NCBI RefSeq assembly: GCF_002531755.2 | Contig: NZ_CP034998.1 | Span: 2,046,001 to 2,110,000, forward strand | DNA from: Rhizobium acidisoli | GTDB taxonomy: Bacteria; Pseudomonadota; Alphaproteobacteria; Rhizobiales; Rhizobiaceae | Direction: 5' to 3' | DNA: 64,000 nucleotides | In this document: piece by piece, positions 35,139 through 61,201 of the stretch | How positions within the stretch are numbered: the stretch's first letter is position 1 | Layout of the letters: every line of letters starts with the position of its first letter | The notes under the pieces: model-generated | Database searches by the model: none | Told to the model about the DNA's origin: nothing | The model's input: only the letters and a program-made list of their open reading frames with translations | Program-made: the position numbers and the translations under genes

Positions 35139-35290
35139 GAATAGATGCGGCCGTAACCATGAACGGTCGCTTCTTCATTGATCCCATCACCGTCTCGGCG
35201 CCGGCGCGTTCTGGAAAGCCGGAATTGTCTCAGGTCTGCCGACAATCTCCGTAATATAAGGCCCGCGGCGAGATCGAAGATCTGCGGCGG
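35106..35290. repeat. left junction repeat of the stress island (with decayed gst 3' end)
   Basis: From 35106 the sequence matches 61202 onward: 45 of the first 48 bases agree, then 25 identical bases at 35186-35210 versus 61277-61301, then a weaker but continuing match to about 35290. The right copy encodes the end of a glutathione S-transferase; the left copy has frame breaks and no ORF. So this is the left member of a direct repeat pair bounding about 26 kb. Confidence 0.85.
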
Positions 35291-35366
35291 CCACCGGGAA
35301 TGGCTTGTCGAACGCGGCCGCGCGACTTCAAGGAAGCCGAATATGAATGGGTTTAAGATCACCCCG

Positions 35367-36722
35367 TTAGTCGGCAGGAAATTCCATATAAGAGGCACTG
35401 ATCGGCCGGCCAAACAGGAACCCCTGACCATAGTGACAGCCTAGCGCTTTCAGTGCCTGAAGTTCTGCCATGGTTTCCACCCCCTCGGCGACCACCTCCT
35501 TTCCCAATGCCTTTGCCATATCAATCATGGCCTTTACAATGGCATGATCGGCGCTCGAGCCGATCATTGCCCGCACAAAAGAACCGTCGATCTTGATTTC
35601 ATCGTAGGCTAGCTCCTTCAAATGCACGAGCGAAGCAAAGCCGGTACCGAAATCGTCAAAGGCAACGATGAAGCCGGCCGCACGAAGCGCCGCAAGCTGC
35701 GTTGCGATATCATTACCCTGCTCCGACAGCATGACCCCTTCCGTGACTTCGATCTGAAAACGACCGGGAGACAGGCCCGCCGACTGGGTTGCGGCGAGGA
35801 TCTCATCGACGAGGCAAGGGTTGCCGGGCACCTTCATAAACTGTGACGATGATACGTTGATTGCGATATGCCCGAAGTCGAAACGGTCCGCCTCCCACGC
35901 CTTGGCTTGTGCGACGGCGCACTGTAGAACATGGCTGCCGATGCGCCTGGAGAGACGCGGCTCGTCGAACGCCGCAGAAAAAGCCGAGGGACCGAGTATA
36001 GACCCATCGGGCTTCCTGAGCCTCAGCAGAGCCTCGAAACCAATGCGCCTGCCTGTATAGAGCGCCAGCTTCGGCTGATAATGGAGCATGAAGAAACCTT
36101 GCACAAGCGCCTCTTCCGCAAGCGCCAATGCCGCTTTGTCGGCTTTTGCGCGAACCAACCGGCCAGCGTCGATCCGTGACAACAAGTACCGGTCTTCCGA
36201 TTGCAGAAGACGTTCCACGGCGCAGCGCGCCAGCCGATCGAGCAAGCCACGCACCCCGATCCCGAGGCGTCTCGGCACCCGGTCGAGAACGCAGAGCGAG
36301 CCGAGCCGAAGCCCCGGCTCAATCTCCAATGGAACGCCCGCATAGAAGCGGATCCCCTCGCTTCCGGTCACGAAGGGGTTGTCGGCAAAGCGAACGTCTC
36401 GAAGGGCATCTGGCACGACGAAAGGCCTCGACGACCGGATTGTATGATCGCAGAAGGCATCCGCCCTCAGGGATCCATCCCCTTCGATGCCCTGTTTTGA
36501 CTTGAACCATTGGCGTTCGCTATCAAGCAGCGTGATGAGGCCAATGGGCGTGCCGGCTGCGAGGCAGGCAGCATTGACCAGCGCATCAAGCACCGGATCC
36601 GGGCCGGCTGAAACGCTCGCCAGCTCTCTCAGACGTTTGAGGCGAGCCGCTTCGTCGGGCAAAAATCCTCGGCGACCGGCTGCTTCCGCAGATGTCACGT
36701 CACGGTCTACAGATGGCAGCAT
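35367..36722 (-). CDS. GAF-EAL cyclic di-GMP phosphodiesterase
   Basis: A 451-residue cytosolic protein. An N-terminal GAF domain (residues about 40-175; [18 protein letters not shown] is typical) precedes a degenerate linker and an EAL domain (about 200-445). Catalytic features are kept: [21 protein letters not shown], the DDFGTG loop, KIDGSFV and the last EGVET. It should hydrolyse cyclic di-GMP under control of a small ligand or redox signal sensed by GAF. It is last in a minus-strand set with an OmpR-type regulator and a PilZ protein, the usual makers and readers of this messenger. Confidence 0.9.
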
Positions 36723-36737
36723 GTGGCGGTTCTACTC

Positions 36738-58703: not shown

Positions 58704-60209
58704 ATGATCACTTCGGATACTCAAAAGCGAGTAGTCCCTCTTCTGACCCGTTGGGGGGAGAACGCATTAGCGTCCGTTCAGGACTTGATGACGCTGTCGG
58801 CGCTCTCGTCTTCATGGATGGACAAGGACTGGGAGCGCATTGCCACTGATGCCGTCACTGCGCTGGCGGGCATATTGAACCTAGAGTTTGCAGCAGTTAA
58901 GCTCAGTCGCTCATCCGGGCAAGTTACGTTCAGGCACAGCTTGCTAAAAGGCAAGTCGAGCGCGATATTTCTCGAATCCCTCCCTCAAATGAACTATCCC
59001 TGGCCAATAAGCGGGGTGGCGGACTGGCAGAGTTCGGCAGGCGGCTCAACGACGCGAATTGCTCGAATTCCCATTGGCCTGAACAATGACGGATGGCTCT
59101 TTGCATGCTCAACGGACGCGCAGTTTCCAAAAGATTCTGAGTTCGTCATCCTCTCCAACTGCGCCAGTCAAATTGCCATCGCTCTGCAGGACTGGCGTGG
59201 ACGCGAAAAAGATAAGCGTTTATGGCAGTTCGCAGAACATTCGGCCGATGTTCTATGGATCCTCGATGCGAACGTGATGCAGATGGAATATCTCAGTCCC
59301 GCTTTCGCACGGATCTGGGGACAGGCACCCGCAGCAGTGCTCGGGGAGATGGGCCGTTGGATTGATACAATTCATCCAGACGATCGCGTTGGTGCACTAG
59401 CCGCGCTCGATTCCGTGCTGAGCGGAGAGGTCGTCGTTCAGCACTATCGCATTGTTCGTCCGGACCTGGTGATAAGGAGGATCCGACAAACGCTTTTTCC
59501 GATCCGTGACGCCCAAGGACGCATTCAGCACGTGGGCGGTGCGGCAGAGGATGTTACGAAGCCGGCCAACATGCAGGTTTATGTCCTTAACACTGACACT
59601 TCTTCAAGGAGGCGCCTGTCACACATGTTACAGAGGAATGGCTATGGCGTGACATTGTTTACGTCCACAGCCAACTTTCTTGGGGTCGCTCCTGTTCTCG
59701 TGCCCGGCTGCGTTATTCTTGTGGGGGAAAGTGCTGAAGCCAAGGTTTTGCGCATCGTAAGTGAGCTAAGGGCGAGGCGCATCGACCTACCTGTCATTGT
59801 GCTTGGTAATGGCCTGGGGGAAGTTAGCTTAGTAGTCAAGGCGATGAAGGCAGGCGTAACCGACTGGCTTGAGGCTCCACACAAATTGACCGAGCTTCTT
59901 GCCGCTATCGCGTCAGCATTGGCGGGTGTCCAAGACGCGATTATTGCCGACCAAGCATCGGAACTTGCCAGGATCCATATTGCCGAGATGACGCCGCGTG
60001 AGCGCGAAGTGTTGCTCGGCCTGGTCGCTGGTGAAACTGGCAAGCTGATCGCGCGACGCCTCGGCATTAGCCCGCGCACTGTAGAGCTTCACCGCGCCCG
60101 TGTTATGGAACGGCTAGGCGCTCGGACCCTGTCAGAGGCTGTATTCCTGGCTGCCTCAGCAGGCCTTAAACCTCAGCCAGACGAGCGCCCCGGCAAGCCT
60201 GACATCTAG
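58704..60209 (+). CDS. GAF-PAS-pseudoreceiver-LuxR regulator
   Basis: A 501-residue regulator with an unusual order: a GAF domain (about 30-170), a PAS domain (about 175-295; FAEHSADVLWILDANVMQMEYLSPAFARIWG), a FixJ-like receiver (about 298-410) and a LuxR HTH (about 430-485, TPREREVLLGLVAGETGKLIARRLGISPRTVELHRARVMERLG). The receiver has lost its active site: the acidic pair has become NTDT, the phospho-acceptor Asp position reads CVILVGES, and the Lys of EKPF is EAPH. So it is not expected to be phosphorylated; GAF or PAS ligands should control it instead. Base composition is more AT-rich than the flanking chromosome. Confidence 0.88.
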   Translation: MITSDTQKRVVPLLTRWGENALASVQDLMTLSALSSSWMDKDWERIATDAVTALAGILNLEFAAVKLSRSSGQVTFRHSLLKGKSSAIFLESLPQMNYPWPISGVADWQSSAGGSTTRIARIPIGLNNDGWLFACSTDAQFPKDSEFVILSNCASQIAIALQDWRGREKDKRLWQFAEHSADVLWILDANVMQMEYLSPAFARIWGQAPAAVLGEMGRWIDTIHPDDRVGALAALDSVLSGEVVVQHYRIVRPDLVIRRIRQTLFPIRDAQGRIQHVGGAAEDVTKPANMQVYVLNTDTSSRRRLSHMLQRNGYGVTLFTSTANFLGVAPVLVPGCVILVGESAEAKVLRIVSELRARRIDLPVIVLGNGLGEVSLVVKAMKAGVTDWLEAPHKLTELLAAIASALAGVQDAIIADQASELARIHIAEMTPREREVLLGLVAGETGKLIARRLGISPRTVELHRARVMERLGARTLSEAVFLAASAGLKPQPDERPGKPDI

Positions 60210-60514
60210 AAGGTTCATCATTTGCTTCCATTCTTTCAGCCCGGGGTCGATCCAGTAAGATGTTTGAGTAAAGGCCTGCGCAAGCACATGCTGCGGCCAC
60301 AACTATATGTGCCTGACGGGCGTCGTTGCGTTTATCGGCGTGGCCCGCCTTTACGGGGACACGACGAAACGTGATCTCCCAGTTCGCGCCTTTCCTGACC
60401 ACGGGTCTGATCGAAGTAACAGTCCCGAGCCTCGTCAATGCGCAAACCCTGGGGTCGACCCTTCAGCGTTAATGGTTTGTCCGTCGGGCGAGCCCGCGTA
60501 CTTCGAGATCGTGC
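60210..60514. other. 305-bp intergenic region without a gene
   Basis: It separates the convergent LuxR-type and DUF892 genes. A few short ORFs cross it without any ribosome-binding site or family resemblance. No clear repeat or terminator hairpin is seen. Confidence 0.5.
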
Positions 60515-60988
60515 TTATTTGGCTCTGCTGTTGATGCCTCGTTCGGTGAGTTTGGTGAGGGCGTAGTCAGTTGCAACTTCTTCCTCCAACGTTTCGAGAA
60601 GCAACGGTAGGGCCTCTTTGAGGCGAAGCTCTACGGCCCAACGGGCCAATGATCCATACTGGGCAATCTCATAATGCTCGACCGTCCGCGCCCACGATAT
60701 CAGAGCTGCGTCGAGTGACAGTTGGCCCTTTAACTCACGCAATACTTTTTCACCTTCAGCAATTATCGCTCCAATCGCCTCACGAGTACTGCCCTGGGGA
60801 GGCGCGCCAAAAATTTCGAAAACCTGCTGCAAACGCTTGATATGCGTTTCTGTCTCGTCACGATGCTTTTCAAGTGCCTCTTTCAGTTCAGAAGAGGCTG
60901 CGCCCTTTGCCATCTTGGGCAAGGCTTTGAGAATATTGTGTTCGGCATAGTAGACACCTTTCAACGTTTCATGAAACAATTTCTCCAA
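60515..60988 (-). CDS. DUF892 ferritin-like stress protein (YciE/YciF type)
   Basis: A 157-residue four-helix-bundle protein: ETLKGVYYAEHNILKALPKMAKGAASSELKEALEKHRDETETHIKRLQQVFEIFG, and later ISWARTVEHYEIAQYGSLARWA. Metal-ligand-like Glu and His of the bundle (AEHNILK, ETETHIKRL, EHYEIAQY, EEEVATD) are kept. E. coli YciE/YciF respond to osmotic and acid stress. The start is probably TTG at 60988, preceded by GGGGAGGAGACA; the open frame reaches an ATG at 61093 without family-like sequence. Last gene before the right junction of the island. Confidence 0.85.
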   Translation of the reverse strand: MEKLFHETLKGVYYAEHNILKALPKMAKGAASSELKEALEKHRDETETHIKRLQQVFEIFGAPPQGSTREAIGAIIAEGEKVLRELKGQLSLDAALISWARTVEHYEIAQYGSLARWAVELRLKEALPLLLETLEEEVATDYALTKLTERGINSRAK

Positions 60989-61201
60989 TGTCTCCTCCCC
61001 TCGTCTTTTATCACTCCGATCTTCGTTCAAAGTGACGCGGAAACGTGAACAAGCACGAATAGTTCCGTTTGATAAATTCGACGAATTGTCCACGAAAAAC
61101 AGGCTGCATCAAGGTTTTGACGGATGGGACGCAAGTTTAATGATAGCCGCCATAAGATTGAATTGGCGCCCCGCAATCCTTCTTCTTAGCGCCGTCAGTA
61201 G

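Follow-up and report, generated by a model that had tools for sequence, protein, structure and literature searches.

Here, we describe a gene island of Rhizobium acidisoli (GCF_002531755.2, NZ_CP034998.1, positions 2,046,001-2,110,000; this whole stretch of 64,000 nt is the window, and coordinates below are positions in it). It is probably a mobile island of proteostasis and redox genes under joint regulation, acquired horizontally, that would rely on DnaK-DnaJ-GrpE and small heat-shock proteins (sHsps) where the transmissible locus of stress tolerance (tLST) uses ClpG. The island is inserted in a conserved site, its core occurs in unrelated genomes, and its DnaK, KefB and sHsps belong to island lineages. 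A preliminary description, made from the sequence alone, had named its gene families (three Hsp20, HdeD, KefB, TrxC, dnaJ-cbpM, grpE, dnaK and others), all of which were recovered when we scanned 30 open reading frames (ORFs; 34.1-62.7 kb) with Pfam, using NCBIfam for selected proteins. The FNR/FixK-type operator shared by its genes and the link to a resident regulator are new.

The genome comprises 7.50 Mb in 5 contigs, and both the window and the housekeeping dnaK gene lie on the 4.57-Mb contig. We searched the DNA of both flanks of the island against 60 genomes of the genus, its own included, and read the lists by eye. The flank ends are joined on one contig, with a gap of <200 bp, in at least 14 of the 59 other genomes, and the R. 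vallis chromosome also shows the empty site; in others part of a flank is absent or lies apart, and G023 has ~2.7 kb between the flank ends. The measured insertion, which splits a conserved chromosomal site, covers 35280-61198 (25.9 kb), in agreement with the span of 35139-61201 initially proposed. It lies between imperfect direct repeats of ~177 bp, the left copy (35103-35279) consisting of the 3′ end of an aldo/keto reductase gene, a gap and the 3′ end of a GST gene, and the right copy (61199-61374) being 81% identical to the left (146 of 181 positions); the repeats thus represent the gene ends of the insertion site in duplicate. The left flank (29000-35279) looks foreign: compared with G1155 and G1169 in 500-bp steps, identity is mostly 85-98% at 20-29.0 kb and then 76-90% up to 35.28 kb. 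On the other side, windows of 200 bp give 89-91% at 61.1-61.7 kb and 89-98% farther out. Given that identity drops at 29.0 kb while G1155 and G1169 stay alike across the same site (95.3% over one 17.2-kb block), the simplest reading is that homologous recombination would have introduced ~29.0-61.7 kb from a different Rhizobium lineage. Elsewhere, ~4.2 kb is extra in the window and ~7.5 kb is extra in G1155 (window 11123-15341 and 25466-25780). With its empty site, its repeats, its foreign-looking flank and a different location in R. vallis, the island is a mobile one.

We searched the window proteins, together with the annotated proteins of an E. coli plasmid tLST, by tblastn against loci (L###) fetched from plasmids and from genomes of a comparison set (G###). 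The same families cluster in relatives and are not scattered, in keeping with the co-occurrence suggested at the outset. The conserved core spans ~15 kb (42.85-58.2 kb), from the PRC-barrel gene through the gene of a CRP/FNR regulator, with an IS256-type transposase and a signalling module to its left and PAS-LuxR and DUF892 genes to its right. In R. vallis, the three longest core blocks show 82-85% DNA identity and the regulator block 74%; the core lies on another scaffold, at a different site, and trxC and its neighbor are relocated. In the 72.9 kb read of that contig, neither the IS256-type transposase nor DUF892 was found, and for the PAS-LuxR protein there is just a 42% relative, ~5 kb past the core. 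The Hsp70-type set also occurs on pNGR234b (L094) and in G142 (L037, in which tblastn found no Hsp20), G743 (L132), G729 (L133) and G170 (L036 and L128, on two contigs), and partial sets occur in G714 (L130), G211 (L131) and G167 (L042). The island of G167 is a hybrid (G167:C22, 466-14000) with GrpE, DnaJ, the Hsp20 trio, BON, AhpC, DsbA, PsiE, PRC and pieces of HdeD/KefB, and a ClpK-like gene (49%) is found ~2.5 kb past it.

The triple-BON protein of the core matches 42 of 397 genomes of the order at E<=1e-40, with >=57% identity in nine (its own included) from seven families. In six of the nine, DnaK lies on the stretch that holds the BON gene; in G170 the parts are spread over two contigs, in G167 GrpE and DnaJ are present there, and G243 offers only a 5.9-kb contig with BON and the regulator. 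In a class-wide search, 2 of 385 genomes pass E<=1e-60, again counting its own. BON proteins of 40-50% identity were rejected as island markers: none of the 14 loci read, of 33 such genomes, has DnaK or GrpE, some having Hsp20, FtsH or DegP and one DnaJ, CbpM and FtsH. Among 15 genomes searched for DnaK, the eight with Hsp70-type clusters carry two copies and the other seven (including G243) one. Around PsiE matches, 20 stretches comprised 3 Hsp70-type islands, 3 ClpK-type islands and 14 that were neither or too short to tell. Relatives of DnaJ (CbpA) abound on plasmids of Rhizobium (127 Rhizobium records matched); in the one region read (L097, CP007645), the DnaJ gene is accompanied by those for CbpM and a universal stress protein, but not by the other island genes.

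The signalling genes at 35.4-41 kb are a separate module, found with KefB and without chaperones in other rhizobia. The initial proposal of a 26-kb island holds for the single insertion, but the conserved core is only ~15 kb. Island-type KefB (88-100% identity) is present in 3 of 394 genomes of the family, one being its own. In the other two, as on an Ensifer plasmid, KefB adjoins EAL and response-regulator genes, and none of the chaperones of the query set was found in the sequence read around it (41-52 kb, or 38 kb on the Ensifer plasmid), suggesting that modules recombine. The kinase, response regulator, EAL protein and KefB stand together in G662 and G558 (loci L086, L087 and L093 compared), the kinase at that place on the Ensifer adhaerens plasmid showing no more than 32% identity. 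In the window, the IS256-type transposase and other genes separate KefB from the signalling genes.

Trees were built for DnaK (28 rows), KefB (43 rows) and Hsp20 (48 of 51 rows). The nine island DnaKs group in a single clade (90/87) whose sister is a set of 15 housekeeping DnaKs (99/99), and the window DnaK is 78% identical to its own housekeeping copy. Within the clade, branching is out of step with host relationships: the DnaK of NGR234, a member of the Rhizobiaceae, is nearest to that of G743, from another family (99/96), and the window and R. vallis DnaKs group with three genomes of family f34 (98/93). The second DnaK of G167 and that of Azospirillum stand together outside the island clade (93/89), and those of Phenylobacterium and Trichormus also fall outside it. 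In the KefB tree, 15 island, E. coli tLST, Sphingomonas plasmid, G346 and G048 sequences stand apart (97/88) from 26 rhizobial KefBs, which are the best listed of a family-wide search. The Hsp20b (98/96) and Hsp20c (95/91) clades each comprise eight Hsp70-type and two ClpK-type islands, the latter keeping the same c-b-a gene order. Of the two sHsp20 proteins of the E. coli tLST, one joins Hsp20a in a broad group of 20 rows (92/94) and the second is unplaced. Since the KefB and Hsp20b/c clades hold both island types, these modules appear to be shared by descent, while the engine differs.

Alignment of the dnaJ/hsp20c and dnaK promoters from eight loci yielded the palindrome TTGACG-NN-CGTCAA, and FNR/FixK-type palindromes (TTGACGNNCGTCAA) precede most transcription units of the island. 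We found TTGACGATCGTCAA before hdeD (45100-45113), TTGACGGTCGTCAG before the triple-BON gene (48093-48106), TTGACGACCGTCAA in the divergent hsp20c/dnaJ promoter (50213-50226), TTGACAACCGTCAA before dnaK (54699-54712), a second operator-like site in the gap between dnaK and the BON gene (54824-54837), and TTGACGATCGTCAG (57042-57055) before the unit of a no-family gene (56361-56984) and trxC; a weak match with 2 mismatches (43374-43387) lies 75 bp before the PRC gene, a spacing kept in relatives. The window holds 7 sites with at most one mismatch to TTGAC-N4-GTCAA, compared with 1.41 expected, and none of 100 shuffles reaches 7; six of them lie in island gaps, three exact and the others with one mismatch. 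Across 14 island loci, 44 of 50 sites fall within the cluster span, and 37 lie at -60 to 260 bp upstream of the start of an island-family gene. Spacing is 60-89 bp to dnaK in eight loci (142 in Phenylobacterium), 93-102 to the triple-BON gene in five (154 in Azospirillum, 86 in Phenylobacterium), 24-47 to HdeD in five, 70-80 to PRC in four and 37-45 to hsp20c in three. Control loci have few sites (ClpK-type L038 0, L039 0 and L041 1; E. coli tLST, L095, 0; Trichormus 0), and two empty-site loci have none. The pNGR234b island has only one-mismatch variants. A sigma-32 gene within a DnaK-GrpE-ClpB cluster of a Phenylobacterium zucineum plasmid is immediately preceded by an FNR-like box (TTGATGACGGTCAA; L175, 1678-1753).

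Genome-wide, YTGACGNNCGTCAR occurs at 10 sites, 4 of them in the island. A wider regulon at the outside sites was considered and rejected, as 10 ORFs scanned at five of the six sites included no stress chaperones; these ORFs are, or adjoin, unrelated genes, among them repA/repB and genes for an ABC transporter, a histidine kinase, a metallo-hydrolase and a thioesterase. By ORF layout, the sixth outside site nearly duplicates another of the six. Two loci of one replicon, L236 and L237 (G000:C2, at 13.6 kb and 532.9 kb), have near-identical layouts with one TTGACGAACGTCAA site each, likely a repeat. Rfam gave no RNA-thermometer match at E<=1 in 33-64 kb; a strict heat-shock sigma promoter pattern matched none of 21 regions upstream of dnaJ, hsp20c and dnaK from eight loci, and a loose one matched four of the 21, none in the window. 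The island is apparently switched on as one unit, its TTGA-N6-TCAA boxes lying upstream of units as in an FNR/FixK-type regulon.

The resident candidate for this control is the FixK-like CRP/FNR regulator encoded at 57405-58178 (minus strand). FNR proper has four cysteine ligands for a 4Fe-4S cluster (PMC2908626); in the aligned part, the window regulator has no set of four cysteines in common with the two relatives nearest to it. In window-type islands the recognition helix reads ETVSR and the boxes are often fully palindromic (TTGAC/GTCAA), and in NGR234-type islands it reads ETVCR and the boxes carry one C/G change; a joint change of helix and box is possible, though the cases are few.

Several findings weigh against a mobile, jointly regulated island. 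No integrase was found among the scanned ORFs, only the IS256-type transposase, so that an integrative element with its own integrase beside an attachment repeat is represented by the repeats only. Since psiE and one BON gene are broken, part of the gene set has decayed. The support of the island DnaK clade (90/87) is not starred, and the KefB tree has long branches. The resident regulator scores 99.8 against a 300-bit family cut-off in NCBIfam (FixK, E 1.3e-28), and regulators of the lineage-B islands are only 34-37% similar to it. Sites with at most one mismatch are scarce in several loci: G743 has 2 and G211 has 1, the single site of G167 lies beyond the span of its cluster, and G714 and the short G243 contig have none. 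Conversely, a BON locus outside such islands, in another Rhizobiaceae genome (L146), has 4 sites, and the box type is therefore not island-private.

The same sites are compatible with a low-oxygen adaptation island under a putative host FnrN/FixK, suited to the nodule or waterlogged soil, in which the resident regulator would be secondary and heat beside the point. This explanation, to which we give rather less than even credence, overlaps the one that we favor and differs from it in controller and purpose. The boxes fit the anaerobox TTGA-N6-TCAA, which drives a microaerobic, FnrN-dependent sHsp in R. leguminosarum (PMC11784457), as well as the alphaproteobacterial FNR/FixK sites of PMC2908626, and the BON cluster of L146 bears such sites. 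That known FnrN-controlled gene, RLV_1399, likewise stands behind a TTGA-N6-TCAA box, but the description concerns a single sHsp gene (PMC11784457), compared with a mobile segment holding six or seven such sites here. Against host control, the extended TTGACG-NN-CGTCAA box is rare in the genome (10 degenerate matches) and the regulator gene resides in the island, so that dedicated control is as likely as host control.

A tLST confers tolerance of lethal heat, chlorine or pressure. We also considered whether the island is a full tLST equivalent, its Hsp70 set taking over from ClpG and conferring equally extreme resistance to lethal heat. As reference we used 16 proteins of the E. coli plasmid copy NZ_CP061755 (L095), searched by tblastn against 33-64 kb at E<=1e-3. 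Besides a PAS-region match of the diguanylate cyclase, hits were limited to the Hsp20s, HdeD, Trx, KefB and PsiE, with 25-45% protein identity in the shared families. ClpK, FtsH, YfdX1/2, DegP, HtpX, Cls, Orf11 and the “dna” helix-turn-helix protein gave no match in that interval, bearing out the initial statement that ClpK/ClpG, FtsH, YfdX and DegP are absent. With ClpK as query, the whole genome gave only 40-51% matches, which by size and identity are ClpB and ClpA, and no ClpK/ClpG; a host ClpB is inferred from the matches at 45-51%. A relationship between tLST “dna” and CbpM was unsupported (hhalign probability 15.6).

According to PMC8290217, the tLST core is dna-hsp20-clpG, DNA conservation across hosts is >80%, and alphaproteobacterial examples hold mostly the protein-homeostasis part. 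The island has hsp20 but no match to ClpK/ClpG or dna, and blastn against the E. coli plasmid tLST gave two short pieces (45 and 121 bp), far from such conservation. Of the tLST companions, hdeD, trx, kefB and psiE (broken) are present and yfdX, ftsH, htpX and degP are not. Because the core definition fails, the island is a relative of the tLST and not a member. The proposed relatedness thus stands for the shared KefB (97/88), Hsp20b and Hsp20c clades, and not for the published core. With the E. coli tLST the island shares the sHsp, HdeD, Trx, KefB and PsiE families, related KefB and sHsp lineages, mobility and cyclic di-GMP (c-di-GMP) genes; the c-di-GMP genes added to tLSTs, noted in PMC8290217, fit the EAL module. 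It differs by lacking dna-hsp20-clpG, FtsH, YfdX, HtpX and DegP and by having DnaK-GrpE-DnaJ-CbpM, peroxiredoxin, DsbA-like, BON and PRC proteins and FNR/FixK-type sites.

ClpK-type islands of the order (G259, G092 and G013) share PsiE with the island, and two of the three (L038 and L039) have the sHsp trio in the same order beside ClpK/FtsH, L038 also having HdeD and Trx. Unlike the island, they encode their own ClpK (71-73%), FtsH and HtpX, with no DnaK/GrpE/DnaJ in the 15-20 kb read. The Hsp70 set stands where ClpK/FtsH stand, as the term “rhizobial counterpart” had implied, but the core is not confined to rhizobia, being found in other families of the order. These shared companions and lineages favor equivalence with the tLST. 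However, according to PMC8129007, ClpG works independently of Hsp70 and keeps its activity in extreme heat that unfolds ClpB and DnaK, while ClpB needs Hsp70; the Hsp70 replacement need not, then, give lethal-heat resistance. With no ClpB/ClpG match in the island and no ClpG found in the genome, equal lethal-heat function is doubtful, and full equivalence is unlikely.

Two further explanations fare much worse. A home-grown cluster, in which the host's own chaperone genes were duplicated and gathered locally, could draw on the similarity of the two DnaKs, but is contradicted by the DnaK tree, which rejects the island DnaK as such a duplication, by the empty site, by the different site in R. vallis and by the rarity of the KefB orthologue in the family, and is very improbable. 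A chance neighborhood of widespread stress genes that share neither function nor control is hardly credible either: each family is common alone and the 14 loci with BON proteins of 42-48% identity lack DnaK and GrpE, but the sHsp trio keeps its order, the core is repeated in independent genomes, operators stand at near-constant spacing and 4 of the genome's 10 YTGACGNNCGTCAR sites are in the island.

The genes themselves, assigned by Pfam unless stated otherwise, are as follows. The signalling module encodes a GAF-EAL c-di-GMP phosphodiesterase-like protein (35367-36722, minus strand; it adjoins KefB in G662, G558 and E. adhaerens pB), an OmpR-type response regulator (36738-37442, minus), a possible PilZ protein (37439-37930, minus; Pfam E 0.0014, below cut-off) and a PAS hybrid histidine kinase (38121-40958, plus), followed by the Mutator/IS256-type transposase (41515-42768, minus). 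The core opens with a minus-strand run of genes for a PRC-barrel protein present in other islands (42850-43299), a DsbA-like thioredoxin-fold protein (43362-44018, the longest ORF, its true start probably lying further in), an AhpC/TSA peroxiredoxin (43891-44415), HdeD (DUF308; 44384-45073; 38% to tLST HdeD), a KefB-type K+/H+ antiporter (Na_H_Exchanger and TrkA_N; 45144-46850; stress-island clade by tree), the triple-BON protein (47338-47991; 57-82% in 8 other genomes), a conserved protein with no Pfam or NCBIfam match (48134-48733; tblastn relatives at 50-89% in 6 other islands) and Hsp20 a (48761-49270), b (49281-49664) and c (49692-50171), all three also placed by tree. On the plus strand lie DnaJ/CbpA (50302-51216; the ORF opens at 50188, and alignment puts the conserved start at 50302), a CbpM-type MerR_2 protein (51213-51542; NCBIfam below cut-off) and a psiE pseudogene (51646-52019), a remnant as first described, with PsiE split over two frames (51646-51855 and 51852-52019). 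GrpE (52050-52649) and DnaK (52679-54616; 645 aa; island clade by tree) are on the minus strand, and a broken triple-BON gene (54957-55586, plus) has 2 TGA codons inside a full-length match. TrxC, a Zn-ribbon thioredoxin (55757-56389, minus), is above the cut-off of the NCBIfam equivalog PRK10996 and 45% identical to tLST Trx; the no-family protein next to it (minus strand), conserved by tblastn and without Pfam or NCBIfam match, is probably membrane-bound, given a hydrophobic stretch seen by eye. To the right of the regulator lie a PAS-receiver-LuxR regulator (58704-60209, plus) and a DUF892 protein (60515-61093, minus).

Other systems resemble the island to different degrees. The pNGR234b island has a near-complete set (DnaK, GrpE, CbpM, DnaJ, Hsp20 trio, BON, KefB, HdeD, AhpC, PRC and a 34% regulator), but another DnaK sub-lineage and extra BON copies. 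Plasmid clusters of Azospirillum brasilense, Phenylobacterium zucineum and Trichormus variabilis share DnaK with BON, HdeD and Hsp20, as well as DnaJ-CbpM, TrxC or PsiE depending on the cluster; they differ by having ClpB, plus GroEL/ES, YfdX, Lon or sigma-32 by cluster. Such looser Hsp70-plus-ClpB clusters suggest a wider family of islands. The conjugative plasmid of T. variabilis (L178) carries GroEL/ES, Hsp20, DnaK, BON, two YfdX, DnaJ-CbpM, ClpB and HdeD, and a Sphingomonas paucimobilis plasmid (L096, NZ_CP065669) carries GroEL/ES, HdeD, KefB, a universal stress protein, cardiolipin synthase, Hsp20 and YfdX. By title and abstract, we found no description of this Hsp70-type island in the open PubMed Central literature, subscription papers not being covered.

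We propose that a FixK-like regulator, resident or host, would co-induce the units, probably upon low oxygen, redox stress or entry into a non-growing state. The three sHsps would hold misfolding proteins, which DnaJ(-CbpM), DnaK and GrpE would unload and refold, tight aggregates being handed on to host ClpB; peroxiredoxin, the DsbA-like protein and TrxC may repair thiols, while KefB and HdeD may protect the envelope and pH. The design would be tLST-like, adding extra proteostasis, redox and envelope copies, with an Hsp70 engine in place of ClpG. More boldly, and with confidence just short of even, this may be a second great class of transmissible stress islands, in which a xenologous DnaK-DnaJ-CbpM-GrpE set and sHsp trio, drawn from the pool of modules that also supplied tLST and equipped with a FixK-like regulon, would spread between alphaproteobacteria a proteostasis program switchable by low oxygen or redox stress and not by heat.

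These results suggest that bacteria trade complete Hsp70 systems on mobile islands, and not only the stand-alone ClpG, with parts drawn from one pool. The two island types would offer a natural test of which engine gives which protection. Finally, island-borne protein repair would be linked to oxygen and redox control, which may bear on the survival of rhizobia under soil stress and on their entry into nodules.

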